A DNA stretch of 64,000 nt from an uncultured Bacteroidales bacterium. GTDB taxonomy: Bacteria > Bacteroidota > Bacteroidia > Bacteroidales > UBA932. Shown one piece after another: positions 22,022 through 36,912 of the stretch; position 1 is the first letter of the stretch; every line of letters starts with the position of its first letter. The translations under genes and the position numbers were made by a program. The stretch lies in assembly GCA_945487035.1 (NCBI GenBank), contig CALYTI010000005.1, positions 41,950 to 105,949 of the forward strand, read 5' to 3'. The notes under the pieces were generated by a model that was not told where the DNA came from, did no database searches, and was given only the letters and a program-made list of their open reading frames with translations.

Positions 22022-22668
22022 GACAGAGCCTCGAATTCATAGTGCTTGCCGCTACGAAGGTGGGCGAAAGCTCGATGGTCCTGCATACGCTAAGCTCCGG
22101 GTTCGGCAGGCGCAGCTTCATCTGCTCCGTGGGCAAGAGCACGCCGACGGCGCTGTTCCAGCCGCTGAGCATACTCAGCGGAGTATATACCGAAAACACC
22201 AAGTCGGAACTATGGCGTCTGGGGAGCCTGAGGGCGGAGTATCCCTTGCTTGGCGTGCGCACAAGCGTGGGGAAGAACGCTATGACTATGTTTCTGGGAG
22301 AGGTGCTGTTCCGCGCGCTGCGTGACGGGGTGAACGAAGAGGGACTGTACGAATGGCTGAGGGGGAGCCTGCTGACCCTTGATGCCCTGGATGGTGATTG
22401 GGCAAATTTTCACCTGCGCTTCCTGCTGGAGCTGTGCGGCGCGCTGGGGTTCAGCCCAACGATTCAGGACCTGGCGCCTTTTGTGGGAGAGCGCTACTCT
22501 CAGGTTAGCAATCTGCTAAGTTTGAGTTATGAGGAGAGCCTGCTGCTGCCGCTGAGCGGGGAAATGCGCAACGAAATCGCCGGGATGCTTCTCGATTACC
22601 TCGGCTTTCACCTCGAAATGAACCTGAACATCCGCTCGCTGCGCGTTCTGCGGGAGTTGTTCGGGTAA
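22018..22668 (+). CDS. recO: DNA repair protein RecO
   Basis: RecO loads RecA at gaps together with RecF/RecR. The 216-aa protein begins MRQSLEFIVLAATKVGESSMVLHTLSS, matching the N-terminal OB fold of RecO (residues 1-80), followed by the helical C-terminal domain. The ORF track extends upstream inside eamA; the ATGA overlap at 22018 is the natural start. The last codons (IRSLRVLRELFG) and the sequence beyond the stop recur at 32.9 and 37.6 kb, which marks this gene end as an insertion site for the neighbouring island. Confidence 0.88.
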   Translation: MRQSLEFIVLAATKVGESSMVLHTLSSGFGRRSFICSVGKSTPTALFQPLSILSGVYTENTKSELWRLGSLRAEYPLLGVRTSVGKNAMTMFLGEVLFRALRDGVNEEGLYEWLRGSLLTLDALDGDWANFHLRFLLELCGALGFSPTIQDLAPFVGERYSQVSNLLSLSYEESLLLPLSGEMRNEIAGMLLDYLGFHLEMNLNIRSLRVLRELFG

Positions 22669-22710
22669 GGTTCCAACACCTTGCTGGCTAATGCCCACTG
22701 GTAATTTCCT
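22615..22710 (+). repeat. Island boundary copy 1: recO 3' end plus downstream block A
   Basis: The string from GAAATGAACCTGAACATCCG through the recO stop and on through GGTTCCAACACC, TTGCTGGCTAATGCCCACTGG and TTTCCT is the intact copy of a sequence repeated at 32910 and 37564 (with recO tail) and at 28339 (block A only). It reads as the left attachment side of the island. Confidence 0.8.
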
Positions 22711-22781
22711 GATGTGACAGATCAGGAGCTAAAAGTGCGTGGAAGGCCGTTTTTCATCCTGATGTGACACATCAGGAAAAC
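22704..22781. repeat. Palindromic repeat family B, copy 1
   Basis: A unit of about 77 bases flanked by two small palindromes, TCCTGATGTGACAGATCAGGA and TCCTGATGTGACACATCAGGA (10-base arms, 1-base centre), around a body GCTAAAAGTGCGTGGAAGGCCG. The whole unit is also an inverted repeat. Related copies occur at 23016, 23132 and 28373, and shortened ones at 32988 and 37651. Confidence 0.8.
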
Positions 22782-22845
22782 AGGGATGGGCCACAGTGAC
22801 CACCGGGAAGAGCAACACAGGGGCGGGAAGTGCCTTGTACCAAAA

Positions 22846-22982
22846 CGTTTGGTGACGAATGTGCCCTGCAGGGCCTTCCAGAGGGGGTGGTTTCACCAAA
22901 CGCGGCAAAATTGGCGAGTTTGGTGACGAATGTGCCTTGCAGGCCTCTCTAGGGGGGTACTTTCACCAAACGATTTGGAACA
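22846..22982. repeat. Twin-hairpin repeat family D (arms CGTTTGGTGA)
   Basis: Two tandem hairpins, 22846-22902 and 22918-22982. Each has arms (C)GTTTGGTGA / TCACCAAAC(G) around a GC-rich body (TGTGCCYTGCAGG). The outer flanks also pair (TTGTACCAAAACG / CGATTTGGAACAA). A homologous twin element with different but still complementary arms lies at 37749-37896 in the opposite orientation. Confidence 0.8.
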
Positions 22983-23015
22983 ACTGTCATAAGAGCACAA
23001 CAAGGCATTCAGGCA

Positions 23016-23092
23016 GTTCCCGACGTTACACGTCCGGAGCTAAAAGTGCCTGGGAGGCCTATTTTCTTCCTAACGTGTAACGTCAGGAAAAC
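23016..23092. repeat. Palindromic repeat family B, copy 2
   Basis: This variant has flanks TCCCGACGTTACACGTCCGGA and TTCCTAACGTGTAACGTCAGGAA around the same body (GCTAAAAGTGCCTGGGAGGCC). Palindrome cores changed from TGATGTG to GACGT while pairing is largely kept. Confidence 0.7.
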
Positions 23093-23131
23093 CGGAAAGT
23101 GCCACTAAAGGGCCTGGAAGGCACATTGGCA

Positions 23132-23210
23132 ATTTCCTGACGTGACAGGTCAGGAGCAAAACTAGCGTGGGAGACCGTTTTTCATCCTAACGTGTAACGT
23201 CAGGAAAACG
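23132..23210. repeat. Palindromic repeat family B, copy 3
   Basis: Flanks TTTCCTGACGTGACAGGTCAGGA and TCCTAACGTGTAACGTCAGGAAAA surround GCAAAACTAGCGTGGGAGACCG. It is closest to the copy at 28373 and runs directly into element C. Confidence 0.75.
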
Positions 23211-23264
23211 GGAAGTGTCGTCAGCCGTAGCAAGCACGATTAGGACACACTCGATGAAACACTA
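23211..23264 (+). repeat. Element C, left-facing end of module 1
   Basis: GCAAGCACGATTAGGACACACTCGATGAAACACTACC is repeated with few changes at 33031-33070. Its end CTCGATGAAACACTACC reappears in inverted orientation near 28287 (degenerate) and at 37398, so C behaves like a terminal inverted repeat around the module cargo. Confidence 0.65.
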
Positions 23265-23300
23265 CCGTCACCCGGGAAGAAGGATATAGGAATGTCACAT

Positions 23301-23349
23301 AAAAAGTCAGCCAAAACCACGCAAAAGTGTTGATTTTGGCTGACTTTTT
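23301..23349. repeat. Hairpin upstream of the AAA ATPase gene
   Basis: A perfect 16-base stem, AAAAAGTCAGCCAAAA / TTTTGGCTGACTTTTT, with a 17-base loop. Its reverse complement closely matches the hairpin downstream of the gene at 24863, so the two form an inverted pair around a single gene. It would also work as a terminator. Confidence 0.8.
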
Positions 23350-23370
23350 TGATGCATAAAATATATTAAT

Positions 23371-23379
23371 TATATTTGC
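23371..23379 (+). promoter_or_regulatory. -7 box TATATTTGC of the AAA ATPase gene
   Basis: A perfect TAnnTTTG match 21 bases upstream of the ATG at 23401, between the hairpin and the gene, giving the cassette its own promoter. Confidence 0.6.
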
Positions 23380-23400
23380 AATCAAGCAATTGTGTTTACA

Positions 23401-24849
23401 ATGAGAACAACTGACATTATAGGAAGAAAACCAGAACTTGAGACACTCAAGTATCTGTATGAGTCTCAGAAATCTGAGTTTCTTGCCATCTATGGAAGAC
23501 GCCGAGTCGGCAAGTCATTCCTGATTGAAGAGGCTTTTGAGGGTAGGATATCCTTTACTGCTGTCGGAATCTTCAAGAAAGACACCGACTCTTCCACATA
23601 CAAGAAGACACAGCTGGTGCATTTTCATGAGTGCTTGATCGAATACGGACTCAACCGTGAGGACACTCCTGTTCCTGATTCCTGGAGAGAGGCTTTCGCT
23701 CTTCTGAGGAAACTACTGTCCAGCAAGCGAGCCGGAAAGAAAGTCGTATTCCTTGACGAACTGCCTTGGCTTGCCGGTCCGCAGTCTTCTGAGCTTGTGG
23801 AGGAACTCGGCTGGTTCTGGAATGAGTGGGCAAGAAAGCAGAAGAACATATTTCTGATTGTCTGCGGATCATCCACCAGCTGGATGCTTGACAACGTAAT
23901 CAGGGATTATGGAGGACTCCACGCCCGCCTTACAGAAAAGATACACCTACAGCCGTTCTCTTTGAAGGAGTGCGAGGAATTCTTCTCCAAAAGAGGTTTC
24001 CATATGTCAAGGTATGAGATTGCATTATGCTACATGACCATCGGAGGAATCCCTTATTATATGGACAAGCTCAGGCCGAACAGAACCCTTGCAGAAAACA
24101 TCGACTCCGTATTTTATAACAGGAACGACGTTTCACAGGAGTTCAAGGATGTCTATACAGGTCTGTTCACTTCATCAGATAGATACATCGATATAGTAAA
24201 GGCACTCGGCAAGAAATTCTACGGAATGACACGAGCAGAAATCGAGAGCCATCTCAAGATTAAAGGCGGAGGAACGCTCAGCAAGATGCTTGACAACCTA
24301 ATTGAGTCAGGAATCATCAAGACTTACAAACGCTACGGTGAAGATAGAGTGACTACGGTATATCAGTTGAAGGATTTCTTCTCCCTGTTCTACCTGAGAT
24401 TCATTGAGGCATCATCGAAGTACACTCAGTGGCGCTCACTTCAGAGAACTCCCGCCTTCTTCACCTGGGCAGGAAACAGTTTCGAGCTGCTTGTTGCTGA
24501 ACACATCCCGCAATTGTGCGAGATCCTGCGAATCAAGGATCCAGCAGAATCATACTGCTGGACAGGCTGGACTCCTGATGAAAAGAACGTGCAGATCGAC
24601 CTTCTTATTCCTGCACCGATGGAGAGGACCGACTACCTATGCGAGATTAAGTTCTCGGAGAATACGTACAGTATCTCTGCAGACTACGAGGCCTCTTTGA
24701 GGAACAAGCTGGATGCCTTCATTAATTCGAAGCAGCACAAGAAGACCCATTCGCTTCAGCTTGTCATGGTAACTTCCTTCGGTCTAAGCAAATCAATTCA
24801 TAACGGCTCAGTAAACAGCATCATTTGTCTGGATCAGCTTTTCAACTAA
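23401..24849 (+). CDS. AAA ATPase with C-terminal DUF234-type nuclease-like domain
   Basis: This 482-aa protein of the archaeal-type ATPase/DUF234 family has Walker A YGRRRVGKSFLIEE near residue 35, Walker B KKVVFLDELPWL, and sensor region FLIVCGSSTSWM. A winged-helix-like part follows (GGTLSKMLDNLIESGIIKTYKRYG), then a C-terminal domain with FFSLFYLRF and VQIDLLIPAPMERTDYLCEIKFSE, resembling a restriction-endonuclease-like core (D...E-x-K). The track starts at a GTG (23392); ATG at 23401 is preferred. Cellular function of this family is unclear. It stands alone between two inverted hairpins, which suggests a mobile single-gene cassette. Confidence 0.85.
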   Translation: MRTTDIIGRKPELETLKYLYESQKSEFLAIYGRRRVGKSFLIEEAFEGRISFTAVGIFKKDTDSSTYKKTQLVHFHECLIEYGLNREDTPVPDSWREAFALLRKLLSSKRAGKKVVFLDELPWLAGPQSSELVEELGWFWNEWARKQKNIFLIVCGSSTSWMLDNVIRDYGGLHARLTEKIHLQPFSLKECEEFFSKRGFHMSRYEIALCYMTIGGIPYYMDKLRPNRTLAENIDSVFYNRNDVSQEFKDVYTGLFTSSDRYIDIVKALGKKFYGMTRAEIESHLKIKGGGTLSKMLDNLIESGIIKTYKRYGEDRVTTVYQLKDFFSLFYLRFIEASSKYTQWRSLQRTPAFFTWAGNSFELLVAEHIPQLCEILRIKDPAESYCWTGWTPDEKNVQIDLLIPAPMERTDYLCEIKFSENTYSISADYEASLRNKLDAFINSKQHKKTHSLQLVMVTSFGLSKSIHNGSVNSIICLDQLFN

Positions 24850-24862
24850 ATCACCTCACACC

Positions 24863-24902
24863 AAAAGTCAGCCAAAATCCACTTTTTAGCGTGATTTTGG
24901 CT
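24863..24902. repeat. Hairpin downstream of the AAA ATPase gene, inverted relative to 23301
   Basis: AAAAGTCAGCCAAAATC...ATTTTGGCT forms a stem of about 10 pairs. Its order matches the reverse complement of the upstream hairpin including part of the loop (CACTTTT.GCGTG). It starts 14 bases after the stop codon and may serve as terminator. Confidence 0.75.
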
Positions 24903-25176
24903 TCTCAACAACTGTTTTACGCTTGGAAGGCACGATTGTTCATAACTTTTTCACTTTTTCTGTATAGATTTTTCGTGCTCGTTCGTTTATTATATATATG
25001 CAAAATGAACGAGTTATGAATAAAGCCCATGTGGTCGCTTGAGGATGCCATGCTCTCTCTGAAGGAACTGTCGAAGCATTCTCGAAATGAGGGAATGCGA
25101 GGAACACGGCCATAAGCACCTGTATGGCGCTTGCAGAAATGCCAACAAAGTCTTAACTTTATGAAAACAACTATTT
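24903..25176. other. Gap between ATPase cassette and integrase remnant
   Basis: About 270 bases of AT-rich sequence. It includes an inverted repeat CTCGTTCGTTT / AAATGAACGAG around TATATATGC, and a 28-codon open frame from 25030 (MWSLEDAMLSLKELSKHSRN) with no recognisable family. I see no convincing gene; it looks like decayed mobile-element sequence. Confidence 0.4.
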
Positions 25177-25329
25177 ATGCCACTGAAAATCTATCTCGAT
25201 AAGAGACAAAACAAGCACGGAGAAGCCCCTATCCGCGTTGCCTGGTCATTCAACGGAGACCGGTACCAGACCACGATGGGCTTCAGCATCCCTCCCAAGC
25301 CTTGGGATGACGCTGCCGGATGGGACTGA
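25177..25329 (+). pseudogene. N-terminal remnant of a Bacteroidetes tyrosine integrase
   Basis: The 50-codon frame MPLKIYLDKRQNKHGEAPIRV ending in FSIPPKPWDDAAGWD matches the arm-type DNA-binding N-terminus common to Bacteroidetes phage/transposon integrases (a basic K-x-x-L-D-K-R start, then a G-x-x-P-I-x-hydrophobic strand and a P-x-x-W-D end). The frame stops there and no catalytic domain with R-H-R-Y residues follows. It is read as a decayed integrase that may have brought in the downstream operon. A short functional arm-binding protein is possible but unlikely. Confidence 0.55.
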
Positions 25330-25370
25330 GGTGGAAAGGTTTAAGGAAATAACTATAAACGAGGTATAAT

Positions 25371-26219
25371 ATGGCCAGAGAACTTAGTATCGCCCATCTT
25401 TCGATGTACAAACCGAAAGGTAAACTGTTTGTCCTATTTAATACAATTACTGCTGATCCTGAACTTTCTTTTGAAATCAGGATTCACGATGAGGTTATTG
25501 TATACTACAACAAGAAAGCAATCTTAACCGTCACAAAAGGTAATAAGATTAAACCTCTTAGTGAGAAATATTATAAACAAGGAGAGGGCCCGACTGTTGA
25601 TATCAGTAATCCTGCTGTGTGGCAATCTGCAAAAGAAATAGAGAAATATCTTAAAGAAGCTAAATTGATTGCTTATCGCCATAGCATGAAAAGAGAATTT
25701 CAGCTTCAGCAGAACATTGCGATGGGTAATCATGATTGTGCCAACCGATTTCTTGCAATAGACATGGAGTGGCAGTTCGCCCAAGATATTATAAAAGATG
25801 AAAAAGACAGAATAAAGAAGACAAGAATTGACTTAGTCATTGTTGATCTGACCCCTAATGCTCTAGGAGTGAATGATATTTACCTTACTGAAGTCAAATT
25901 GGGAACCGAGGCTTTGAAAGGTGATTCAGGCTTACAAGGACATGTCAACAGTACCAGTATAATCGCTAATTCACCATACGCATGTCAAGGACTTATTGAT
26001 GATGTAAAGTCAATTCTTGCTCAAAAGCATGAGTTGGGCATTATCACGGGAGAATTTCCGAAATTGCATTTGGCTCAAAAGCCAAAGATGCTCTTTATTC
26101 TTGGACATAGAGGAACTCAAGAGAGGAAGGAACTGGAAGATGAAATGTCCAAACTAAAGATTCCAACAGGACTTGATGAGCCGATTGTGATGTACCAGGA
26201 CACCTTGATAAGACTATGA
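25371..26219 (+). CDS. Unknown protein with PD-(D/E)XK nuclease-like core
   Basis: I do not recognise a named family for this 282-aa protein. The middle holds a plausible restriction-endonuclease-like core: acidic DMEWQF near 130, then RIDLVIVD, then YLTEVKLG (E-x-K) near 185, the spacing expected for D...ExK catalysis. The N-terminal 80 residues are beta-rich. Base composition is more AT-rich than neighbouring housekeeping genes. Its stop overlaps the ATG of the beta-CASP hydrolase (ATGA), so it is the first gene of a four-gene unit. A nucleic-acid-cutting role is inference. Confidence 0.75.
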   Translation: MARELSIAHLSMYKPKGKLFVLFNTITADPELSFEIRIHDEVIVYYNKKAILTVTKGNKIKPLSEKYYKQGEGPTVDISNPAVWQSAKEIEKYLKEAKLIAYRHSMKREFQLQQNIAMGNHDCANRFLAIDMEWQFAQDIIKDEKDRIKKTRIDLVIVDLTPNALGVNDIYLTEVKLGTEALKGDSGLQGHVNSTSIIANSPYACQGLIDDVKSILAQKHELGIITGEFPKLHLAQKPKMLFILGHRGTQERKELEDEMSKLKIPTGLDEPIVMYQDTLIRL

Positions 26220-27559
26220 AAATCACCCTTCATCGTCCCCATCAAATTGGCGGCTGCATCACGGAGATTGAATCCAATGCAGGCACCAGGATTTTCATAG
26301 ACCTGGGGCATCTGCTTCCGGACGGAGACAAACCCTCCGACGATAAATTGGCCACAAAAGATGCCATCGACAAGCTGACAGTTGGCGCTGCTGCCATCCT
26401 GTACACGCACAATCACGGGGATCACGTAGAATTGTTTAACCTGGTGGATGAAAGCATTCCCCAGTATATCGGTAATCTTGCTGCAGATTTAATGGGGCGC
26501 AAGTACCAGCGTCTATCCTGCCTGGATGACCAGCATGAGGAATGCATGTACCGGTTGAAGAAACTGGAGAACTTCCATTTTTATCACGCAGGAAAGCCAC
26601 TTTATTTCGGCAAAAGGAAAGACATTACGGTGACACCCTTCTATGTCAGCCATTCGGCCACTGATTCCTATCTATTGAAGATTCAGTGTGATGGAAAGAC
26701 GGTCATCCATACCGGTGATTTTCGTGAACATGGATACCTGGGCGATGGCCTGCGCAAAGTGATTGACAAGTTCCATATTGCCGGCAATGTTGATGTATTG
26801 ATTGTTGAGGGAACTAATGTCGGCCAGCCTTACAAACCAGTAAAGAGCGAACAGGAGGTTTGCGACTGCTTCAAGGAAATAATGGCTAAGCGCAAGAATG
26901 TTTTTGTTTTGTGTTCTTCTCAAGATGCAGACCGCCTGGAGTCCATCTATCAGGCCAATTATTCTACGGAGCCATGGCGTCCATTAGTTTGTGACAGCTT
27001 CCAGGCAGAGACGATAGAAAGGATTAAAAGGGAATATAAAGGACTTGGGCCTCATTACCAGTTTAACAAGGGGAAAGCCTATATCTATGATTATGACCCG
27101 ACGAAAAACGAAGGGCTTGTAGCTAAGATGAAGGACTGTGGCTTTACAATGCTTATCCGCTGCAGTGATAAGTTTGCAGAATGGATAGATGATATCCTTA
27201 AGTTCTGTAATAAAGAAGAAACCTCCTTCGTCTATTCCATGTATCGTGGCTATGTAGAAAAAGGCTGGGGCGGATATAATGAGAAAACTGACGCCTTTAT
27301 TCAGCCCCTGGTCGCAAGCTCTACACCATGCCTGAAAGGAAGCAAGAGATACGACTACAACCATACGTCTGGCCATGCATCTATTCAATCTCTTAAGGAG
27401 ATCTGTGAACTAATTGGCCCGAAGACAGCCATCATACCCATCCACCACAATCCGGATGCCGATTTCCACACTGTTGGACTGAGGAAAGATTTGGATGACA
27501 AGATTGTTGAGGCTGAGACTGTAATTGACGGAATAACTATTTCTTTCAATAAAGCGTAG
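26216..27559 (+). CDS. Metallo-beta-lactamase/beta-CASP hydrolase, RNase J-like
   Basis: This 447-aa protein has the complete MBL metal set: FIDLGHLLP (motif 1 Asp), YTHNHGDHVE (motif 2 HxHxDH), YVSHSATDSYL (motif 3), VIHTGDFREH (motif 4) and IPIHHNPDADF near the end. Beta-CASP traits are LIVEGTNVG (motif A) and YNHTSGHASIQS (motif C). This is the pattern of RNase J-type ribonucleases, but it lacks the C-terminal domain of about 100 aa that RNase J carries. It sits between a nuclease-like gene and a HAD phosphatase of the RNA-repair type, suggesting a dedicated RNA-cleaving or trimming enzyme rather than the housekeeping RNase J. Confidence 0.88.
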   Translation: MKITLHRPHQIGGCITEIESNAGTRIFIDLGHLLPDGDKPSDDKLATKDAIDKLTVGAAAILYTHNHGDHVELFNLVDESIPQYIGNLAADLMGRKYQRLSCLDDQHEECMYRLKKLENFHFYHAGKPLYFGKRKDITVTPFYVSHSATDSYLLKIQCDGKTVIHTGDFREHGYLGDGLRKVIDKFHIAGNVDVLIVEGTNVGQPYKPVKSEQEVCDCFKEIMAKRKNVFVLCSSQDADRLESIYQANYSTEPWRPLVCDSFQAETIERIKREYKGLGPHYQFNKGKAYIYDYDPTKNEGLVAKMKDCGFTMLIRCSDKFAEWIDDILKFCNKEETSFVYSMYRGYVEKGWGGYNEKTDAFIQPLVASSTPCLKGSKRYDYNHTSGHASIQSLKEICELIGPKTAIIPIHHNPDADFHTVGLRKDLDDKIVEAETVIDGITISFNKA

Positions 27560-27561
27560 CA

Positions 27562-27768
27562 ATGACAGACAAGCTTACTGCCAGTATGAAATCCTGGATC
27601 AAGCAGGATTACCAGGACATCTGCGAAAGCCCGGCCGAGTACGGCATTTCCTATGCGGAGAAAGAATTCGGCAAGATAGTGGACATCATTGAGGAAGATG
27701 TCAATGCCAAGTTTGAGATGACGATTCCGAGATTGCTAATCGAAGATTACTTGAGAGAAAATGACTAA
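27562..27768 (+). CDS. Small acidic protein of unknown function (68 aa)
   Basis: The protein MTDKLTASMKSWIKQDYQDICE...IEDYLREND is helical and charged with no signal or membrane segment. No family is recognised. It starts 2 bases after the beta-CASP stop and overlaps the next start by 8 bases, so translation coupling supports it being a real gene and perhaps a subunit or inhibitor of the neighbouring enzymes. Confidence 0.65.
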   Translation: MTDKLTASMKSWIKQDYQDICESPAEYGISYAEKEFGKIVDIIEEDVNAKFEMTIPRLLIEDYLREND

Positions 27769-28240
27769 ACTTGTTTTCCTTGACATAGACGGTGTACTGG
27801 ACACCTACAAATCCCGCTATCAGCTTGATCCGGAACTGATGGCGCATCTGGGTACTCTTCTGGAGAAAACAGGCGCCAGCATAGTTATTTCATCATCTTG
27901 GCGTGCTCAGGATGTGCCCGGCACAGTTGAATTTATGACTGATTCGGACAATCCTAGCGTTGGTGGGCATCCCTTCCCTTTCACCGACAAGATTGTTGGC
28001 GTTACTCCCATCCTGTTCTCCGTAATTGACGGTGATATTGACCGTCCTGCAACTCGAGGAGAGGAAATCGCGGCATACCTGAAAGTTCATTCCTGCGACA
28101 ACTATGTCATCCTGGATGATTGTGACGAGATGCTTCGCGAACAATGGCCGCATCTGGTCCTTGTCAACGATGAGGTGGGATTAACGGAGGCCGATGTAGA
28201 GAAGGCAGTTGGAATCTTGAAACAGACACAAGACAACTGA
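27761..28240 (+). CDS. HAD phosphatase domain protein of the Swiss-Army-Knife RNA-repair type
   Basis: This 159-aa single-domain protein opens with LVFLDIDGVLDTYKSRYQLD (HAD motif I, DxDGV), then IVISSSWR (motif II with the SSSWR string typical of this group) and YVILDDCDEML near 125 (motif IV acid pair). The combination DIDGVL...SSSWR...DD is that of the HAD domain described in Swiss Army Knife RNA repair proteins, where phosphate ends of cut RNA are thought to be processed. It overlaps the small upstream gene by 8 bases. RNA-end dephosphorylation in concert with the beta-CASP enzyme is inferred. Confidence 0.8.
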   Translation: MTKLVFLDIDGVLDTYKSRYQLDPELMAHLGTLLEKTGASIVISSSWRAQDVPGTVEFMTDSDNPSVGGHPFPFTDKIVGVTPILFSVIDGDIDRPATRGEEIAAYLKVHSCDNYVILDDCDEMLREQWPHLVLVNDEVGLTEADVEKAVGILKQTQDN

Positions 28241-28286
28241 CACCGCTCTGCCAACCTCACCGGAGGGAGTGTCCTGCGGATGCGCT

Positions 28287-28458
28287 GGGTCAGTGTTTCT
28301 TCGATGGTCTTGCACGAGGTGATGTTTTCTGCGTATTAATTCCATCACATTGCCGGCTAATGCCCACTGGTGATTTCCTGATGTAACAGGTCCGGAGCAA
28401 AACTAGGGTGGGAGGCCGATTTTCTTCCTAACGTGTAACGTCAGGAAAACAGGAAGTG
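28287..28458. repeat. Module 1/2 boundary: degenerate element C, block A copy 2 and family B copy 4
   Basis: GGTCAGTGTTTCTTCGATGG (28289) resembles inverted element C. TTCCATCACATTGCCGGCTAATGCCCACTGGTGATTTCCTGA (28340-28381) is block A without the recO tail. 28373-28450 is a family B palindrome (TTTCCTGATGTAACAGGTCCGGA and TTCCTAACGTGTAACGTCAGGAA). The ion channel gene ends about 10 bases further on. Confidence 0.75.
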
Positions 28459-28460
28459 TG

Positions 28461-29243
28461 TTACTTAGAGAGCTTATCTATCTTTTCTTCGAGGCGGCGA
28501 AGCTGTTCTTTGACGTCGTCGTTGTTGTCCTCAACCATTGCGTCAACCATGATGGAGTTGATGAGGGACATTCCGAGGATGCCGCCACAGAAGAGGAGGA
28601 CGATAAAGTAGATTCGAACTGCTGTTTGGCCGAAGGCTCCCATTCCTGCCATCACTGAATCTGGAATTTCGTACCAGCCTTCAATGGTGAAGAGTCGGAA
28701 GGTGGACCAGACTGCTTCTGTTGGGGTGCCGAAGAATTCCGGGCTGTATTTTCCAAAGAAGGCGCATGATATGAGCGCTGACACTACGAGCAATACCACG
28801 AATGCCACAACGACTACGTATGCTGATTTAACGGCTCTTTTGACGCCCGCAAGAATCTTCTCGATGTCCGGGAGGAATCGAACTACACGAATGCTCTTGA
28901 ATACCCTAAGAACACGAAGGGCACGGAGTACAAGGATTACCGAGACCTCTCCGATACCCACTCCAAATGGAGCTAGCAGTGACGGCAGGGCAATGGCAGT
29001 GATGATGAAGTCAAAGCGATTCCAAGACTCACTCCAGTAGTCCTTCCAACCAAACACCCTGATTTTGCAGATTGCTTCTGCAACGAATGCAAGTGTGAGG
29101 AGTGCATCAACAATTGTGAGCCATTCAGGCGCACATTCTGAGAACTGCCACCATATTGTGGCGGTATTAAGAATGATCAGAAGGAGTATGACTCCATCAT
29201 TCAAAAGGGGATTGCGTGATTGTATCTGTGTGTTCTTCTTCAT
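28461..29243 (-). CDS. Voltage-gated-type cation channel (single six-helix subunit)
   Basis: This 260-aa inner-membrane protein of the ion transport family (BacNav-like) has six helices. S4 is clear with arginines every third residue: LRALRVLRVFKSIRVVRFL. The pore helix and filter read FRLFTIEGWYEIP, comparable with the TxExW filter of prokaryotic sodium channels but with Gly-Trp-Tyr-Glu. The C-terminus is a charged coiled coil (NDDVKEQLRRLEEKIDKLSK), as in tetrameric bacterial channels. It is the last gene behind the type IIG enzyme and NERD protein, 23 bases after the latter. Selectivity is uncertain. In this context a membrane-depolarising defence effector is a possible role. Confidence 0.88.
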   Translation of the reverse strand: MKKNTQIQSRNPLLNDGVILLLIILNTATIWWQFSECAPEWLTIVDALLTLAFVAEAICKIRVFGWKDYWSESWNRFDFIITAIALPSLLAPFGVGIGEVSVILVLRALRVLRVFKSIRVVRFLPDIEKILAGVKRAVKSAYVVVVAFVVLLVVSALISCAFFGKYSPEFFGTPTEAVWSTFRLFTIEGWYEIPDSVMAGMGAFGQTAVRIYFIVLLFCGGILGMSLINSIMVDAMVEDNNDDVKEQLRRLEEKIDKLSK

Positions 29244-29266
29244 GTCGGCTTATATGATTCTATTTC

Positions 29267-30007
29267 TCATAAAAAACGTCTGCTGTAACCCCAGCCGGAA
29301 CTGTAAGTGTGTGATTCATGGCTGTTAGCCTTTGCTCGTGCTGCGAGATTAATCTGGGCCTGACGAATTTCAGGGTCACGGCCATTACGAACGCCTTCTG
29401 CGAGGACTTTGGCAACCTCATGTTTATTACCGTACTCTTCAGGAGGAAGGCTCAAGATATGTTTGATGAGTTCAACAACCTGTGTATTGTAGATGACACG
29501 GACTCTACCGGTTGGATCATATTCAAGTTCTTTAAACTCACAATTACCGTAGAATACCACGACGTTGAAAATAGGAACATCTGAGTTATTTGGCAGGAGT
29601 TTGCGTAGAGCAGTAATGTGGGTGCGATTCTGCCAAATTGGATTGTAGAACTGATGTTTCTCCTCTCCGAATGCGAGTATCTGCATCCAGTATTTGCTAT
29701 TCCCATTTCCGAAAATCCAACCGCTGTAATCCTTGACCTCGAATACAATAATGCCCTGAGGGGTAGTAACGGCAAGATCTATCTGAGTGTATGTGCCATT
29801 CTCCTTACGGATGTAGAGGTCATGGTAGATTGCTCGCTGGTCGATGCCACATTTGTTGAGAAGCAAGGGGATAAGGTCCCTCTCTGACCAAGTGCCTCTA
29901 TCGAGAGATGTAACTGACTCGACCTGCTCACGATACTTCTTGGCCTTGATGATACGGCGTGCAATCAAGGCGATAAAGCAAATGGCTACAAGAACTATGA
30001 TGAGCAT
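29267..30007 (-). CDS. Membrane-anchored NERD-domain (nuclease-related) protein
   Basis: The 246-aa protein begins with one transmembrane helix (LIIVLVAICFIALIARRII) and then a NERD domain: TWSERDLIPLLL, QIDLAVTTPQGIIVFEVKDY (Asp and E-x-K of the nuclease-like fold) and WIFGNGNSKYW. The C-terminal 40 residues are polar and low in complexity. NERD domains are nuclease-related and often occur in DNA-processing or defence settings. It lies 10 bases downstream of the type IIG gene and upstream of the ion channel on the same strand, making a three-gene operon likely. Confidence 0.85.
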   Translation of the reverse strand: MLIIVLVAICFIALIARRIIKAKKYREQVESVTSLDRGTWSERDLIPLLLNKCGIDQRAIYHDLYIRKENGTYTQIDLAVTTPQGIIVFEVKDYSGWIFGNGNSKYWMQILAFGEEKHQFYNPIWQNRTHITALRKLLPNNSDVPIFNVVVFYGNCEFKELEYDPTGRVRVIYNTQVVELIKHILSLPPEEYGNKHEVAKVLAEGVRNGRDPEIRQAQINLAARAKANSHESHTYSSGWGYSRRFL

Positions 30008-30017
30008 TTCGGTTATT

Positions 30018-32792
30018 CTATTTGTCTGTGAGGTCTTTGTACATCTTCATCAGAGCTGCGACGATGTCGGATTCCGTGAATGTCTTTGGGAATCCATATG
30101 CGGCCATGACTGCAGCATCGTTTGCCTGGTGGGCCTTGCGGAGTTCGATAGGCATGGTCAGCTCATCATACAAGTCTGCAAGGCTACTATCTGGGTAAAG
30201 GGCGCGGGCATCGAGAATTGCCTGTGCGGTCTGTTCAATCTTAGCCTTCTGTTCTTCGGAAGGAGTTGGCCATGGGAAGTTGTTGTAGACAATTGTATTT
30301 GAATAACTGTAGTCACTCTTCAATCTGCCGCAGATTGCCCTCATCCAAGCCATATGAACATTTGATTCCATTATTCCAAAGTGGTAGAGCGAGGCTTCCT
30401 GCATTGTAAACAACTTGTCTCCGGGAATAATATCTTTTGACAAATAGTCCATCGGGATATAGTGACGATTCTCTGAGGATACTTTTGGGATAGCGACATA
30501 ATCGCTGGAACATTCAAACGGTGCACCAAACAGCATCGGATTTTCGGCCGCCTTTATTGTGCTTGTCCTATTGCTTGCAAGTCTGAATGTCCTGACATTT
30601 TCTATACGCCTTAATACTTCTGGACATTTTCTGATTATCGACGGATCAATCCCTTTCAACCATAAACAATAGCGTGGTTTTCTGTCGATAAAGTCCTTTC
30701 CCATCATATAGAAACGCAAGCAAGGCTCAGCCTGTGCTTCTTTTTTGAGCAATGTATCTTTCTCTTCTTCGGTCAAAGTCAGATTACCATCATCAATAGG
30801 CTGGCCGCCAAGACAAATTTCCGGAACATCGGAAATAGGCTTCATTCGTTTTTCAATGAAAATGTTCGGGGCATCAAGCAAGTATCCGTTTATTGTTGAT
30901 GCAACCTTCGCACTCTCTACAGATGAGAAAATAATTTTCTGCTTTGTCGAAGGACAGAGTGAAAATCCGACTATCACGCAGTGCACTTGAGCCTTGATAC
31001 TAGCTTCGCTGTCCCACCGGAATGTCCTCCAAGCGAAATCGATGTGAACACCGTAATCTTCCATCAACGGTTTCCAAAGATTTGCAACTGCACCACCCTG
31101 GGTTATCGAGTTGGTGGAAACGAGCGCACACCGTATGTGCGTGTCTTTGATATAGTCCGTTGCTTTCTTGTACCAGCAACATACATAGTCCAAGTCTCCA
31201 ACACCGGGCCACTTTGCTCCGAAAATCTCAAGCACATCATCTTTCTGTTCCTTACCCATCCAACGAGCACCCACGAACGGTGGGTTACCCATTATGTAAT
31301 TCAGCCTTGTTGCAGGAACCACATCATTCCAGTCAATATGCAGTGCATTCCCTTCGATGATATTCTGGTACGATTCAAGAGGGAAGTAGCTCAGAGGCTC
31401 GGCAATGATGTCCTCGGTGTTCTTTTGCATCTGAGCCTCGCTGATCCATAGTGCGGTGCGGGCAACAGTCACGGCAAAGTCGTTGATCTCGATACCGTAG
31501 AACTGCTTGATGTTGACCTTAATTGGGCTGAACTCTGCACCCATATTGAGCTGTGGACCATCACCGTTACGGAGTACACGGATAATCTCGTTCTCAAGTT
31601 TGCGAAGTGACAAGAACGTCTCTGTAAGGAAGTTACCGGAGCCGCAGGCAGGATCGAGGAATGTGAGTGATGCAAGTTTGTCCTGGAGCTCTTTCAGTGT
31701 CTTCTCACGCTTGCTTCTGACAGGGATTGCAAGGGCATCCTCGAGTTCTTTCTTGAGATCATCAAGGAAGAGAGGGTCGATGAGTTTGTGAATATTCTCA
31801 ACAGAGGTGTAGTGCATTCCGCCGCTACGACGTGTCTCTGGGTTCAAGGTTGATTCGAAAACAGCACCGAATATAGTAGGAGAAATGCCGGACCAGTCAA
31901 AGTCAGCAGAACAATCCTTTTCAATAAGGGTTATGATTTCAGGGGTGAAACGAGGAATCTCGATATCCTCGTCTGAGAATAGATCTCCATGCACGTAAGG
32001 GAAGGCCGCGAGATCTTCGTCAAGATACGGATCACGTAGGGATTCCATAGTGTCAAGCACCTTGAAGAGTTCCTTGAGCGCGGAGCGTACAGTATTGCTG
32101 TGCTTGCGAAGGTAGTTGACGAACATATTCTTCTTTCCGAACAGGCTCGCATCTTCGGCATACATACAGAACACGAGACGTACGCAAAGGATGTTGAGAG
32201 AACGAAGTGTATCCGGTGAAGTGGGGTCTGCGTACTGGGCAAGGAGCATATCGTAAAGTCTGCCCACGAGGCGACCAGCTTCGATGGACAGTTCTTTTTC
32301 ACGGATGATCTTTTCGTCAGTCTCTTCGACAAGGAAGTTCAGAAGATGGTAGTCTTTGTCCAGGTTCTCCAGAAGGACGGAGAGAGGGTCATCGTGCGGA
32401 TGTTCGAGATCATAAACAAGGAACTCCTGGAAGTTGCATACGACAATCCAGCGAGGGCGCTGAGAGTTTGGGAGTTCGTTCGCATAGCGCTTTGCCTGCT
32501 CGAATGGAGTGAGCATCTTGCCATCTGACTGAGCTGCTGCCTTGCGAAGGTCTTTGCCGAGACTCTTCTGTTCAATCATCACCTTGGTTGAGCGAATATG
32601 ACCGTCGATGAAGGAAGTGTGGTCGAGTTTGACCTGCTCTTCGAATGATATGAAAGATTCAGGGTGTGCGATGCCATAAACGTCTCTGAGGAGTGAAGTC
32701 CAGAATTGCTGGCCTTCGCCTTTCTCATATCCCCTGCCACTCCAGAATTCGGCGAAGGATCTTGCTGCGTTTCTTTGCTGTACGTCGGTCAT
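30018..32792 (-). CDS. MmeI-like type IIG restriction-modification enzyme
   Basis: This 924-aa fused endonuclease-methyltransferase has an N-terminal nuclease domain with FIDGHIRSTKVMIEQKS, giving D63 and E74-x-K76. A helical connector follows, then an N6-adenine methyltransferase: motif I FLDPACGSGNFL (380-386), FYGIEINDFAV and motif IV NPPF at 503-506. The C-terminal 300 residues resemble the target recognition domain of MmeI-family enzymes (PCLRFYMMGKDFI, CLWLKGIDP). All key motifs are intact, so both activities are likely. No separate restriction subunit is seen. It is the first gene of a minus-strand unit with NERD and ion channel genes. Confidence 0.9.
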   Translation of the reverse strand: MTDVQQRNAARSFAEFWSGRGYEKGEGQQFWTSLLRDVYGIAHPESFISFEEQVKLDHTSFIDGHIRSTKVMIEQKSLGKDLRKAAAQSDGKMLTPFEQAKRYANELPNSQRPRWIVVCNFQEFLVYDLEHPHDDPLSVLLENLDKDYHLLNFLVEETDEKIIREKELSIEAGRLVGRLYDMLLAQYADPTSPDTLRSLNILCVRLVFCMYAEDASLFGKKNMFVNYLRKHSNTVRSALKELFKVLDTMESLRDPYLDEDLAAFPYVHGDLFSDEDIEIPRFTPEIITLIEKDCSADFDWSGISPTIFGAVFESTLNPETRRSGGMHYTSVENIHKLIDPLFLDDLKKELEDALAIPVRSKREKTLKELQDKLASLTFLDPACGSGNFLTETFLSLRKLENEIIRVLRNGDGPQLNMGAEFSPIKVNIKQFYGIEINDFAVTVARTALWISEAQMQKNTEDIIAEPLSYFPLESYQNIIEGNALHIDWNDVVPATRLNYIMGNPPFVGARWMGKEQKDDVLEIFGAKWPGVGDLDYVCCWYKKATDYIKDTHIRCALVSTNSITQGGAVANLWKPLMEDYGVHIDFAWRTFRWDSEASIKAQVHCVIVGFSLCPSTKQKIIFSSVESAKVASTINGYLLDAPNIFIEKRMKPISDVPEICLGGQPIDDGNLTLTEEEKDTLLKKEAQAEPCLRFYMMGKDFIDRKPRYCLWLKGIDPSIIRKCPEVLRRIENVRTFRLASNRTSTIKAAENPMLFGAPFECSSDYVAIPKVSSENRHYIPMDYLSKDIIPGDKLFTMQEASLYHFGIMESNVHMAWMRAICGRLKSDYSYSNTIVYNNFPWPTPSEEQKAKIEQTAQAILDARALYPDSSLADLYDELTMPIELRKAHQANDAAVMAAYGFPKTFTESDIVAALMKMYKDLTDK

Positions 32793-32909
32793 ACTATCGT
32801 GCGTAATCTCGGTTAAACTTGTAAAGTTAAGATATTTTTGGCGAACAGAATGCTATTATTGTCCCACAGGCCTTCGATATTTAAGAAAGTGAGTATATGG
32901 GATTCTTAA
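32793..32909. other. Leader region of the type IIG operon
   Basis: Read on the minus strand, TAACTTTAC (about 32824-32832) is a one-mismatch -7 box about 35 bases before the ATG, a weak promoter candidate. Beyond it the sequence passes into the boundary repeat. Confidence 0.35.
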
Positions 32910-33070
32910 TGAAATCCCTTCGCTGCGCGTGCTGCGGGAGTTGTTCGGGTAGGGTTCCATCACATTGCTGGCTAATGCCCACTGGTGATTTCCTGACGTG
33001 AGGTCAGGAAAACGGAAAGTGCTGTCAGCCGCAGCAAGCACGATTAGGACATACTCGATGAAACACTACC
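32910..33070 (+). repeat. Island boundary copy 3: recO tail, block A, short B palindrome and element C
   Basis: AATCCCTTCGCTGCGCGTGC...TTCGGGTAG still encodes the RecO end (SLRVLRELFG, stop) but has no recO gene before it. Then follow GGTTCCATCACATTGCTGGCTAATGCCCACTGG, a shortened B palindrome (TTTCCTGACGTGAGGTCAGGAAA, 32988-33012) and element C (GCAAGCACGATTAGGACATACTCGATGAAACACTACC). This composite is the best evidence of repeated integration at the recO end. Confidence 0.85.
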
Positions 33071-33162
33071 CAGTTTGTGTCAGTACGGCAAAAGAAAGCC
33101 ATTCTTACACAAATTGAAAAATTACTTCGTCGGATGCTTACTGTGAGACGCCAAATTATAGC

Positions 33163-33197
33163 AAGTGGCAGCGTGCTCTCAAAAGCAGCTGCCACTT
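33163..33197. terminator. Hairpin after the BspA-like gene
   Basis: AAGTGGCAGC / GCTGCCACTT forms a perfect 10-base stem 20 bases past the stop of the LRR gene. There is no long T-run, so termination strength is uncertain. Confidence 0.5.
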
Positions 33198-33216
33198 TGC
33201 ATATTAACGTCCGCTG

Positions 33217-35730
33217 TTACAGCGCGTTTGAATAGTCATAGCCGACGATACGCGACGCGTAGGACGGCCAGCTGGCCTTATAAGCTTCTTCTGAACCTAA
33301 CGGCACATAAATCGTAACTGGACATTCGGAGAATGCATATTCACCATAAGTGCTTAGCGATATGGCCTTTATATATGTGCTTGTCATGCTGCTGCAACCA
33401 AAGAATGCACCATACATAATCTTTTTAACGCTTTCTGGAATAGTGATACTTGTCAGTTTTGAGCAGTAATAGAATGCAAAGTCATTAATCTCAGTAACGC
33501 TTTCCGGAATGGTTATGCTCGTCAGGCTGCTGCATCTAGAGAATGCACCATTCATAATCTTTTTAACGCTTTCTGGAATAGTGATACTTGTCAGTTTTGA
33601 GCAGTTATAGAATGTATGTTCATTAATCTCAGTAACGCTTTCCGGAATGGTTATGCTTGTCAGGCTGGTGCAATAGTAGAATGCCTCACTTCCAATCGAA
33701 GTTATGCCTTCGTTCATCACAACGGCGGTTAAATTACTACATTCCTTGAAAGCTCTGTTTCCAATAGACGTGATACTATTTGGGAAAGTGATTTCTTTCA
33801 AACTTTCACAAGAGCTAAAATATGAATACGGTATGGTCTTTACTGACGTGAAATACTGGAACTCGTTGAAGGTCTGGAAGGTCTTATTTGACAAGGTCAT
33901 TCTGTACAAGTCGGTGACGGCGGCAGCTTCGGCGTAAGAGAGTTCACCGTCTTTGTCGGTGTCGAAAGCAGTTAGACATAGTTCCTTCATTTCGTCGTCT
34001 TCAAAGATAACGTATTTTGCGAGTTTCCAACAGCCGACGATACGCGACGCGTATTCCGGCCATCCGGCCTTATAAGCTTCTTCTGAACCTAACGGCACAT
34101 AAATCGTAGCTGGACAATTGGCGAATGCATTTGAGCCATAAGTGCTTAGAGATGTGGCCTTAAAATATATGCTTGTCAGGCTGGTGCAATCAGCAAATGC
34201 AGTAAACTCAATCGTAGTAACGTTTTCCGGAATAGTAATGCTTGTCAGGCTTGTGCAATCTTCGAATGCAGATCCCATAATCTGAGAAACGCTTTCCGGA
34301 ATAGTTATGCTTGTCAGGCTTGTGCACTTATAGAATGTATAATTAGTAATCTCAGTAACGCTTTCCGGAATGGTTATGCTCGTCAGGCTGCTGCATTCTG
34401 AGAATGCACCGTAGTCAATCGAAGTAACGCTTTCCGGAATGGTTATGCTTGTCAGGCTGGTGCAATAGTAGAATGCCTCACTTCCAATCGAAGTTATGCC
34501 TTCGTTCATCACAACGGCGGTTAAATTACTACATTCCTTGAAAGCTCTGTTTCCAATAGACGTGATACTATTTGGGAAAGTGATTTCTTTCAAACTTTCA
34601 CAAGAGCTAAAATATGAATACGGTATGGTCTTTACTGACGTGAAATACTGGAACTCGTTGAAGGTCTGGAAGGTCTTATTTGACAAGGTCATTCTGTACA
34701 AGTCGGTGACGGCGGCAGCTTCGGCGTAAGAGAGTTCACCGTCTTTGTCGGTGTCGAAAGCAGTAACACATAGTTCCTTCATTTCGTCGTCTTCAAAGAC
34801 AATGTTCTCTGTTCCGGCGGAGGTAATAGGGACGGTAACAACAGGCATTTTCAGGACTGAAGACCTTTTGATTTCATTTGAAACAGAAGCTTTTATAGGC
34901 ATCACTTTGCCTTCTGTATCAACGACCTTTACGGTAAAGCCGTTGCTGAAGACGGTAGGAGGAACGGAGATGATGAATAGTGTCGGAACGGCAGGGTCCA
35001 ACTGGACACCATCGCCGCAGTCCAGCGTAATGGTCCCGGTAGCCTCTGCGCTCATTGTTATGCTCGGAACTTTCGCTCCGGGATAAGCAGTAATGGATGA
35101 CGAGCCCGCAAGCTTTTCATTATTATTGCCTTTCAGTATTATTCTTTTCACCGCACACTCTCCGCAAAGCTGAAGTTTCAACGCTCCGTTAACGTTCTTG
35201 AACTTCAGGGAGTGATCGGATACCGAATTTGTCACCGCAACCATTGCAAACGATTCCTGCGCGAATGAATTCGCCTGATACTGCTGTGAGGAAGGGAATT
35301 GGAAGCCGGAAATGGTGTAGAATGTTGACTCCACTCCGCCTTCGGAGACGGTCTTACTGCTGCAGCCGAGGCCGTCAGAATACGGATAGACTGCAATATT
35401 TGCCGGTATCTCCATTCCGGAGGAGAATTCTCCGTTGACTTCGCTATTGTCACTTATCAAAGTAAAGATACCGCTGGAAGTTCCGTCGCATTGTTCCTTG
35501 ACCTGGTAGGTGTCAGCGACCGTTGCGCCCTGGAAAATCGCGATTTGGTCTCCTTTCGTCCAGACTATGCTGTTTTCCTCGGTCATCGAAGTCTTTGTTG
35601 GTCCATCGAAGCATTCGAGGCTGGCCACAAATTCTTCGCCCGTGTTTTGCACTGGGTTTTCGAGTATTATTTCTTGCTGGCAGGCAACGGACAATGCGAT
35701 GCCTAACGACAATATGAATATCTTTTTCAT
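33217..35730 (-). CDS. BspA-type leucine-rich repeat surface lipoprotein with EF-hand-like loops
   Basis: This 837-aa predicted surface lipoprotein uses the ATG at 35730 (MKKIFILSLGIALSVAC); the track extends 41 codons too far. Residues about 25-310 resemble a fimbrillin-like beta domain (SIVWTKGDQIAIFQG). Two tandem modules follow, each with an EF-hand/dockerin-like loop FDTDKDGELSYAEA and LRR_5/BspA repeats of about 23 aa (SLTSITIPESVT). The modules share a nearly identical 377-base block. Each repeat series ends IYVPLGSEEAYKA. BspA proteins bind host or community surfaces; the role here is inferred adhesion. Promoter and function of the N-terminal domain are not evident. Confidence 0.88.
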   Translation of the reverse strand: MKKIFILSLGIALSVACQQEIILENPVQNTGEEFVASLECFDGPTKTSMTEENSIVWTKGDQIAIFQGATVADTYQVKEQCDGTSSGIFTLISDNSEVNGEFSSGMEIPANIAVYPYSDGLGCSSKTVSEGGVESTFYTISGFQFPSSQQYQANSFAQESFAMVAVTNSVSDHSLKFKNVNGALKLQLCGECAVKRIILKGNNNEKLAGSSSITAYPGAKVPSITMSAEATGTITLDCGDGVQLDPAVPTLFIISVPPTVFSNGFTVKVVDTEGKVMPIKASVSNEIKRSSVLKMPVVTVPITSAGTENIVFEDDEMKELCVTAFDTDKDGELSYAEAAAVTDLYRMTLSNKTFQTFNEFQYFTSVKTIPYSYFSSCESLKEITFPNSITSIGNRAFKECSNLTAVVMNEGITSIGSEAFYYCTSLTSITIPESVTSIDYGAFSECSSLTSITIPESVTEITNYTFYKCTSLTSITIPESVSQIMGSAFEDCTSLTSITIPENVTTIEFTAFADCTSLTSIYFKATSLSTYGSNAFANCPATIYVPLGSEEAYKAGWPEYASRIVGCWKLAKYVIFEDDEMKELCLTAFDTDKDGELSYAEAAAVTDLYRMTLSNKTFQTFNEFQYFTSVKTIPYSYFSSCESLKEITFPNSITSIGNRAFKECSNLTAVVMNEGITSIGSEAFYYCTSLTSITIPESVTEINEHTFYNCSKLTSITIPESVKKIMNGAFSRCSSLTSITIPESVTEINDFAFYYCSKLTSITIPESVKKIMYGAFFGCSSMTSTYIKAISLSTYGEYAFSECPVTIYVPLGSEEAYKASWPSYASRIVGYDYSNAL
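33631..34007. repeat. Intragenic duplication, copy a (copy b at 34423-34799)
   Basis: The 377-base block recurs 792 bases away within the same gene with, by eye, two mismatches (in GCAGTTAGACATAG versus GCAGTAACACATAG). The period equals one EF-hand plus LRR module (264 codons). The near identity indicates a recent duplication or gene conversion. Confidence 0.85.
34423..34799. repeat. Intragenic duplication, copy b
   Basis: Partner of 33631-34007. Sequences on both sides diverge, for example CATTCATAATC versus GTAGTCAATCG contexts, so only this part has been kept the same. Confidence 0.85.
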
Positions 35731-35761
35731 TGTTATAAAGGGAATTTTAGATTTGTGATTG

Positions 35762-35884
35762 TTAGGACCAGCTGCCGTTTTCTTCTTCGACGCGCTCAAG
35801 GGTGCTCGTACTCTGGCAAAGAACATTCTGGCAGTCCAATTCAAGCTCCTCACATTCGGGAGCAGAGTAGTGTAAGGTTTTCAT
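35762..35884 (-). CDS. Small peptide gene preceding the BspA-like lipoprotein (40 aa)
   Basis: The frame MKTLHYSAPECEELELDCQN...EEENGSWS is too short for the ORF track. The pattern (Lys-rich start, P-E-x-E-x-L, then a V-L-C-x-S segment, acidic tail) resembles short peptides often found just before fimbrillin- or BspA-type genes in Bacteroidales. It ends 31 bases before the lipoprotein ATG on the same strand, so both can share a transcript. Function is unknown. Confidence 0.6.
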   Translation of the reverse strand: MKTLHYSAPECEELELDCQNVLCQSTSTLERVEEENGSWS

Positions 35885-36090
35885 TCGCGTAGGGTGTAAT
35901 TTAGTTATTGTTTACTTTTGCGTCTCGATTACCAACTCTTTCGATACTTTCTATACACCTTTTATCATTATGCAATTATCAAAATGGCGAAAGGTACGAA
36001 AGAGATTCACGCTATGCTAAACGTGCTGGAGCAGACGCTTTCTCATTTTATATTATTGTCAAAGTGAAAACAAACAAATTGGAGAATCCA
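35885..36090. other. Gap with an orphan plus-strand -7 box
   Basis: TACTTTTGC at 35913-35921 matches the plus-strand consensus but leads only to a 27-codon frame at 35983 (MAKGTKEIHAML...). I see no supported gene here. Confidence 0.35.
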
Positions 36091-36588
36091 TCATAATCCA
36101 GACATCGTTTCGCCGATTATTCTAAATGAGCGGCCATTAGGTTCAGCACTGTAGTAATACTCAAATTTGCCTCCCTTGGGATAATAGCTTAGTGACTCCG
36201 AATCTTTGTTCTCTGAAATGATAGCTGCAAAATAACCGACTATCTGCTTGTCAATTAACATGTCATGTGACTCTTTCAAGAAAAGGGCAATATTATCCTC
36301 ATATTGTTTTACAATCTCCTTTGACGTAGCAGAAAAGGCATTCACATGTAATTCATTGAATAGAGCGACACGAATTGGATTCCGTTCTATGGGTTCCACA
36401 ATGAATGGTACATTTATCTTAGCTACACTATGAATAGTCCATCCATCAACGCTACATAAATTGTTCAATGCTGTAACATGCAAATCCAAGTCAGATTCAA
36501 TTTTGTGGTCTGAAGAAAGTGTTCTGACAATTCTAGCCAATTCCCTGCTAATAGGATGGTCGACTCCAATGTTTTCAAAATAACCCAT
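36091..36588 (-). CDS. Unrecognised cytoplasmic protein (165 aa)
   Basis: I do not recognise a family. The protein (MGYFENIGVDHPISRELARIV...) has no signal or transmembrane segment and mixes helices with short strands; SYYPKGGKFEYYYSAEPNGR near the C-terminus looks like a beta-hairpin. The track begins at a TTG; the ATG three codons in is preferred. It lies 28 bases downstream of a small HTH protein on the same strand, so it is probably co-transcribed with it. Base composition is AT-rich relative to the housekeeping flanks. Confidence 0.65.
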   Translation of the reverse strand: MGYFENIGVDHPISRELARIVRTLSSDHKIESDLDLHVTALNNLCSVDGWTIHSVAKINVPFIVEPIERNPIRVALFNELHVNAFSATSKEIVKQYEDNIALFLKESHDMLIDKQIVGYFAAIISENKDSESLSYYPKGGKFEYYYSAEPNGRSFRIIGETMSGL

Positions 36589-36615
36589 AATTTCCAATTT
36601 TTTATTTATGCCTAT

Positions 36616-36912
36616 CTATATTTGTTTGCCATCTCCTGAATGCGCACTTTCTGCCTCATTAGATAATGTCCATAAGAAATCATAGCTTGTCTTGAGATAG
36701 CGCCATTCGGTTTCGCTCATTTTTAGGGTGATTTTTTTGGCCTGTTCAATGCTGAGTATATCCCTCTGCAGCGTGCGTATAGTGTAATTGATGCCAAATT
36801 CCGACAATCCGCCCATTGCATCTATCAACTCTTCGGCGGGGATATAATTCCTGCGTCCGCTCAATTTGTTGATAATGCGGCTATATCTCGTCAGTTGGTT
36901 CATTTTTGCCAT
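36616..36912 (-). CDS. Short HTH protein resembling the N-terminus of a WYL-type regulator
   Basis: The 98-aa protein MAKMNQLTRYSRIINKLSGR...YIPAEELIDAMG...INYTIRTLQRDILSIEQAKKI matches the DeoR-like winged helix that opens WYL-domain regulators (helix, E-E-L, T-x-R-T-L-Q-R-D-I). The WYL part that normally follows is missing, so it is either a truncated regulator or a stand-alone DNA-binding protein. The TTG used by the track (36930) is rejected in favour of ATG at 36912. It may control the adjacent 165-aa gene. Confidence 0.6.
   Translation of the reverse strand: MAKMNQLTRYSRIINKLSGRRNYIPAEELIDAMGGLSEFGINYTIRTLQRDILSIEQAKKITLKMSETEWRYLKTSYDFLWTLSNEAESAHSGDGKQI

Follow-up and report, generated by a model that had tools for sequence, protein, structure and literature searches.

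A PD-(D/E)XK-type nuclease gene coupled to an RNase J-like β-CASP gene: a candidate mobile RNA-processing cassette with exchangeable accessory enzymes

The operon and its genomic island

The window analysed here, a stretch of 64,000 nucleotides from an uncultured Bacteroidales bacterium, contains a compact run of four genes that lies within an island between recO and rdgB. The features of the locus are the following.

22669–38775: island of approximately 16.1 kb, between recO (which ends at 22668) and rdgB; contains the operon
25180–25329, forward strand: tyrosine-recombinase-like N-terminus, 49 open codons ending in TGA, the resemblance being judged by eye
25371–26219, forward strand: gene 1, 282 amino acids, predicted PD-(D/E)XK-type nuclease with a β-rich N-terminal domain; core gene
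26216–27559, forward strand: gene 2, 447 amino acids, metallo-β-lactamase (MBL)/β-CASP protein, RNase J-like predicted ribonuclease; core gene
27562–27768, forward strand: gene 3, 68 amino acids, acidic (pI 4.35), of no family
27761–28240, forward strand: gene 4, 159 amino acids, stand-alone HAD phosphatase domain (HAD_SAK_2, PF18143); exchangeable accessory
38776–39357, reverse strand: rdgB, at the far flank of the island

The open reading frames are arranged exactly as in the original prediction of a four-gene operon, genes 1 and 2 overlapping by 4 bases, genes 2 and 3 being separated by 2 bases and genes 3 and 4 overlapping by 8 bases. No PADLOC family matched any of the four products, and genes 1 and 3 also lacked a Pfam match. 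The G+C content of gene 1 (38%) is well below that of genes 2–4 (44–49%) and of the window (52%), which suits a patchwork origin of the operon.

The proposal that the operon sits in a repeat-bounded island is borne out by copies of the 3′ end of recO at 22630–22668, from 32914 and from 37578, i.e. inside the island and at its far end, and by a locus of the same genus (L143) in which the DMT, recO and rdgB genes are joined directly, representing the empty site; the island is thus judged to have been inserted horizontally. Only the first 40 bases of the repeats, corresponding to the recO 3′ end, are island-specific, while their palindromic part is not: the palindromic repeat of about 80 bases in window positions 22630–22786 recurs some 70 times elsewhere in the genome, with a total of 74 matches on the two strands. 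The recombinase-like stretch immediately upstream of gene 1 is a probable remnant of a mobile element. Other island genes encode an ATPase_2/DUF234 protein (PADLOC candidate PDC-S27), an ion-channel protein, a NERD protein and an MmeI-type IIG restriction-modification enzyme. The ATPase_2/DUF234 gene (23392–24849) is flanked by a 40-base inverted repeat (88%) at 23309–23348 and 24863–24902, which has no other copies in the genome and could delimit a small mobile unit or represent paired terminators. A gene for a large protein with internal 69-base direct repeats occupies positions 33217–35853, in the next segment delimited by recO repeats.

Two putative nuclease families with conserved catalytic residues

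The PD-(D/E)XK-like core originally read in gene 1 is supported by the presence of the E…D…ExK active site, with E109, D154, E174 and K176 conserved without exception in 66 homologues, together with a high-confidence AlphaFold model (mean pLDDT 94). The closest PDB neighbours of this model found by Foldseek are HamA, which is the best match, Can2 and BstEII, although the matches are weak (best E 7e-3, TM 0.27) and none reaches an E value of 0.001. All three are PD-(D/E)XK enzymes, HamA and Can2 being defence nucleases and HamA and BstEII being DNases. Among the relatives of gene 1, the best PADLOC match (PDC-S05, E 4e-5) is not convincing, and the family is modelled by neither Pfam nor PADLOC. 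One relative, at positions 768–2259 of locus L115 (genome G298), has no β-CASP neighbour and lies 22 bases behind a gene for a 228-residue protein that, by eye, resembles a uracil-DNA-glycosylase fold.

In Pfam, the gene 2 product scores above cut-off for both Lactamase_B_2 and RMMBL. Residues D29, H65, H67, D69, H70, H146, D168, E198, H383, H387 and H410 are invariant in 54 homologues and cover the MBL metal ligands (H65-x-H67-x-D69-H70) and β-CASP motifs A–C, placing the protein in the MBL/β-CASP ribonuclease family. Nearly invariant among the same homologues is the HTSGHA segment, which in RNase J binds the 5′ phosphate of RNA. The gene 2 family profile matches RNase J structures, and its closest solved relatives are RNase J, EF2904, CPSF73/INTS11 and Cas14 of type VII CRISPR–Cas.

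RNase J is the closest solved family that has been characterized, sharing with gene 2 the MBL and β-CASP fold and the HxHxDH and SGHA…PIH motifs. Nevertheless, gene 2 scores far below the RNase J family models of NCBIfam (50.3 bits for TIGR00649 against a cut-off of 400, and 37.3 bits for RNase_J1_RnjA against a cut-off of 820), is approximately 100 residues shorter, belongs to the accessory genome and has an obligate-looking PD-(D/E)XK neighbour. The view that it is a β-CASP enzyme devoid of the RNase J C-terminal domain also holds, since no match to this domain was found in its 447 residues and alignments with RNase J of 553–574 residues stop near residue 400 of the latter. The best PADLOC match among gene 2 relatives, LmuA (E 8.5e-6), is again not convincing. 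The conservation of catalytic residues in the homologues of both genes argues that the two families comprise active enzymes.

The nature of the substrate can be approached from these relationships. HamA and BstEII, which resemble gene 1 at weak significance, are DNases, and the gene 2 profile also reaches Apollo, SNM1A and Artemis, albeit weakly, so that a DNA-directed defence may be envisaged in which the β-CASP enzyme acts on DNA like SNM1/Artemis, in concert with the PD-(D/E)XK nuclease, while a phosphoesterase, HAD or PLD enzyme processes the DNA ends. The best gene 2 profile matches, however, are RNase J and other RNA-acting β-CASP enzymes, and the KptA and RtcB enzymes found among the accessories described below belong to RNA-specific families, which makes action on DNA quite improbable.

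A sporadic two-gene core with exchangeable accessories

Gene 2 and its HxHxDH region served as the seed in searching for relatives of the operon. Among GTDB representatives, a scan combining a sequence pattern with tblastn returned 80 loci, 53 from Bacteroidota, 24 from Bacillota and the rest from Fibrobacterota, Dojkabacteria and one unclassified genome, and tblastn of gene 2 identified ten plasmid records, from Prevotella, Butyrivibrio, Sphingomonas, Cereibacter, Cupriavidus (L010), Ochrobactrum and Rhizobium (L013). The core thus ranges over Bacteroidota, Bacillota, plasmids of Pseudomonadota, Fibrobacterota and Dojkabacteria. Its occurrence is sporadic, with matches in eight of 396 Bacteroidota genomes (about 2%), or approximately six if two distant RNase J-sized matches are left aside. 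Neither a tblastn search of 50,697 phage records with gene 2 nor one pattern scan of IMG/VR gave a match, and carriage of the core by phages is therefore unlikely.

The pooled set comprised 97 non-duplicate loci, many of them metagenome-assembled, with genes predicted by a simple ORF caller; 83 were evaluable, having a complete β-CASP gene flanked by 700 bases or more on either side. An adjacent PD-(D/E)XK-like partner was recognized in 76 of these 83 loci and none in the remaining seven. In 59 of the 76 the partner falls in the sequence cluster of gene 1 itself, the rest being more divergent and recognized through profile similarity or motif only; about 15 partner assignments concern such divergent types, some made by motifs alone. 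One divergent cluster, C7, has invariant E150, D212 and E231-x-K233, but its model (pLDDT 73) gave no significant PDB match, and its PD-(D/E)XK status hence rests on motifs. Where the partner belongs to clusters C1, C6, C7 or C9 (70 loci), it is invariably encoded on the strand of the β-CASP gene, lies upstream in 61 loci, overlaps it in 43 and is within 100 bp in another 16. A profile search with gene 1, whose sampling is independent of the gene 2 seed, found homologues in four of 396 Bacteroidota genomes, three of which adjoin a β-CASP gene.

The conserved unit is therefore genes 1 and 2, a pair that is best regarded as real, ancient and mobile. Conservation of all four genes as a unit was rejected: the full set was not seen elsewhere, and only genes 2–4 recur jointly, in one near relative. 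Support for co-inheritance of the partner with the core is also weak, as the respective distances are poorly correlated (rho 0.13), which suggests that re-targeting of the partner may be frequent. Mapped on the gene 2 tree, partner type switches 22 times or more if 'none' and single types are treated as states, and phosphoesterase presence switches 12 times, which points to both partners and accessories being modular. The accessory families found in an operon with the core are the following.

HAD phosphatase (HAD_SAK_2): the window and L022
PLD-like (PLDc_2): L022 and L010
calcineurin-like phosphoesterase (Metallophos): 15 loci
KptA/Tpt1: L036 only
RtcB: L030 only
ADP-ribosylglycohydrolase (ADP_ribosyl_GH): L026 only

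According to Pfam, one of these types is present in the operon at 20 of the 97 loci, most loci having no recognized RNA-end enzyme. Phosphoesterases account for 15 of 253 operonic neighbours versus three of approximately 924 other flanking ORFs (Fisher p 3e-8, with loci treated as independent though some are related). Judging from the families involved, the accessories would constitute a mostly RNA-end-processing repertoire. In RNA-repair systems, the processing of RNA ends has been put forward as a role of HAD and calcineurin-like enzymes (PMC9503650). In L030 (5207–11098), a metallophosphoesterase, a DnaE-like fragment, the PD-(D/E)XK and β-CASP proteins and an RtcB ligase are encoded in a single operon-like run, with a WYL gene just upstream.

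Gene 4 was predicted to encode an RNA-repair-type HAD enzyme, and its match to HAD_SAK_2 (83.4 bits against a cut-off of 27.5, E 2.5e-23), with DxDGV, SSSW and LDDCD segments, agrees with this assignment. While the domain family is that of the Swiss-Army-Knife RNA repair proteins, the 159-residue gene 4 product consists of the HAD domain only and differs from their multidomain architecture. Genes 3 and 4 accompany the core only in the window and in L022 (78% and 74% identical), and the HAD phosphatase is best described as an exchangeable accessory; the gene 3 product is possibly an adaptor or inhibitor. The HAD gene was also considered as a pointer to function and discarded, as nine further HAD_SAK_2 genes of Bacteroidota lie away from this core and share no consistent partner.

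Members of a sequence cluster that includes the WYL regulators, with the WYL domain confirmed by Pfam for one representative, are present at 22 of the 97 loci. In defence loci, this domain has been predicted to act as a sensor of nucleotide or RNA ligands (PMC4012209). Together with the repair-type families HAD_SAK_2, KptA, RtcB and calcineurin-like enzymes (PMC9503650), WYL domains as proposed sensors of RNA ends (PMC9503650, PMC4012209) would also be compatible with repair rather than attack, the cassette cleaning and healing cellular RNAs, such as tRNAs, that RNases of phages or bacteria have broken: the β-CASP enzyme would trim damaged ends, the accessory would strip blocking phosphates and RtcB from the cassette itself or a host ligase would seal the break. 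Such a role seems unlikely, given that healing would have no need for the constant partner, a PD-(D/E)XK nuclease whose active site is intact, and that a ligase is found at one locus only.

Proposed role and relation to known systems

RNase J reads the 5′ end of its RNA substrate, acting in an exonucleolytic mode on 5′-monophosphate and in an endonucleolytic mode on 5′-triphosphate ends (PMC4652760). This dependence, the RNA-acting enzymes that are the nearest solved relatives of gene 2 and the prevalence of RNA-end families among the accessories lead us to infer an RNA-cutting cassette with an end-editing accessory. The cassette itself is apparent from the loci, in which a PD-(D/E)XK-like gene adjoins an RNase J-like β-CASP gene across phyla, with intact catalytic residues and often with the addition of one enzyme of an RNA-end family. 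We give an even chance to the full reading, i.e. a mobile two-nuclease cassette that cuts RNA and edits its ends by means of an exchangeable accessory, most likely to be used in conflicts with phages or plasmids. The PD-(D/E)XK protein, as the fast-evolving and exchangeable half, would recognize foreign or abnormal nucleic acid and cut it or license its cutting; the β-CASP enzyme would then degrade RNA as RNase J does, endonucleolytically or, from a suitable 5′ end, 5′-exonucleolytically. The accessory, which is the HAD enzyme in the window and a phosphoesterase, KptA, ADP-ribosylglycohydrolase, PLD or RtcB at other loci, would reset the chemistry of RNA ends, thereby deciding which RNAs remain degradable, are spared or are rejoined, and WYL-type regulators might switch the cassette on at a subset of loci.

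Several observations count against this reading: KptA, RtcB and ADP-ribosylglycohydrolase are single-locus finds, some β-CASP genes have no recognized partner, and the HAD and calcineurin-like families also include protein and small-molecule phosphatases. Enrichment of known defence genes around the core was rejected, as PADLOC families were matched by approximately 5–6 of 125 flank proteins and by no fewer of the 125 control proteins (a small test with controls from two genomes). The original suggestion of a conflict or antiphage system in which RNA is cut and its ends are treated is upheld in part: the mobile-island setting holds and the RNA-end theme is strengthened by the KptA, RtcB, PLD and phosphoesterase enzymes of the relatives, whereas its antiphage part gains nothing from the flanks. 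The flanks would suit an RNA-processing operon outside any conflict, serving mobile-element or host regulation, with phosphatases acting on proteins. β-CASP nucleases are paired with phosphatases in eukaryotic assemblies such as Integrator and the cleavage/polyadenylation factor, and fragments resembling sigma-70 and DNA polymerase III alpha, encoded next to several loci of the Prevotella type, would be in keeping with such a role. Rare and patchy occurrence, carriage on plasmids and islands and the repeated changes of partner type speak against it, and we consider it distinctly improbable.

A conflict-directed RNA-cutting cassette finds parallels in known systems. Cas14 of type VII CRISPR–Cas is a β-CASP RNase that serves antiviral immunity (PMC11786720), and DefensePredictor identified DS-9, a pair of metallophosphatase and HAD phosphatase, which like DS-8 has been validated in phage defence (PMC13092281); an antiphage role is consequently plausible. 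The gene 2 profile matches Cas14 (E 2e-15), although gene 2 is nearer to RNase J, and the locus departs from type VII CRISPR–Cas in that Pfam and PADLOC scans of eight window proteins revealed neither Cas5 nor Cas7. No nuclease core has been described for DS-9, and in the cassette the HAD and metallophosphoesterase enzymes substitute for each other instead of co-occurring. MBL nuclease–trypsin pairs, such as HamM in Hachiman, and those of AVAST, Lamassu and DRT, illustrate the swapping of an MBL nuclease among conflict systems (PMC12799240); HamM, however, is a ComEC-like DNase under protease control, in contrast to the RNase J-like β-CASP gene 2, and no protease was found among the scanned operon and flanking proteins.

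The prior impression that no named system has this gene set stands: PADLOC and the open literature searched, which does not include the RNA-repair survey most likely to mention one (Burroughs and Aravind, NAR 2016), yielded none of this composition. Genes 1 and 2 are an uncatalogued nuclease pair, gene 1 having no Pfam model and neither gene a convincing PADLOC match. A further-reaching and tentative proposal, on the doubtful side of even, is that of an undescribed class of bacterial immune system: invader RNA would be destroyed by a PD-(D/E)XK nuclease acting as sensor together with the β-CASP enzyme, while an interchangeable end enzyme would control which ends are degraded, capped or spared. 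β-CASP nucleases have a central part in RNA decay and in eukaryotic 3′-end formation, Cas14 being a recent example found in immunity. If correct, a portable cassette of a β-CASP enzyme and a diversifying PD-(D/E)XK protein with swappable end enzymes would make RNA end chemistry testable as a mark of self and non-self or of damage.

At six loci (L080, L091, L078, L094, L097 and L098), small DNA polymerase III alpha-like and sigma-70-like fragments are encoded beside the core together with WYL regulators, and these fragments could be decoys of host proteins targeted by phages.
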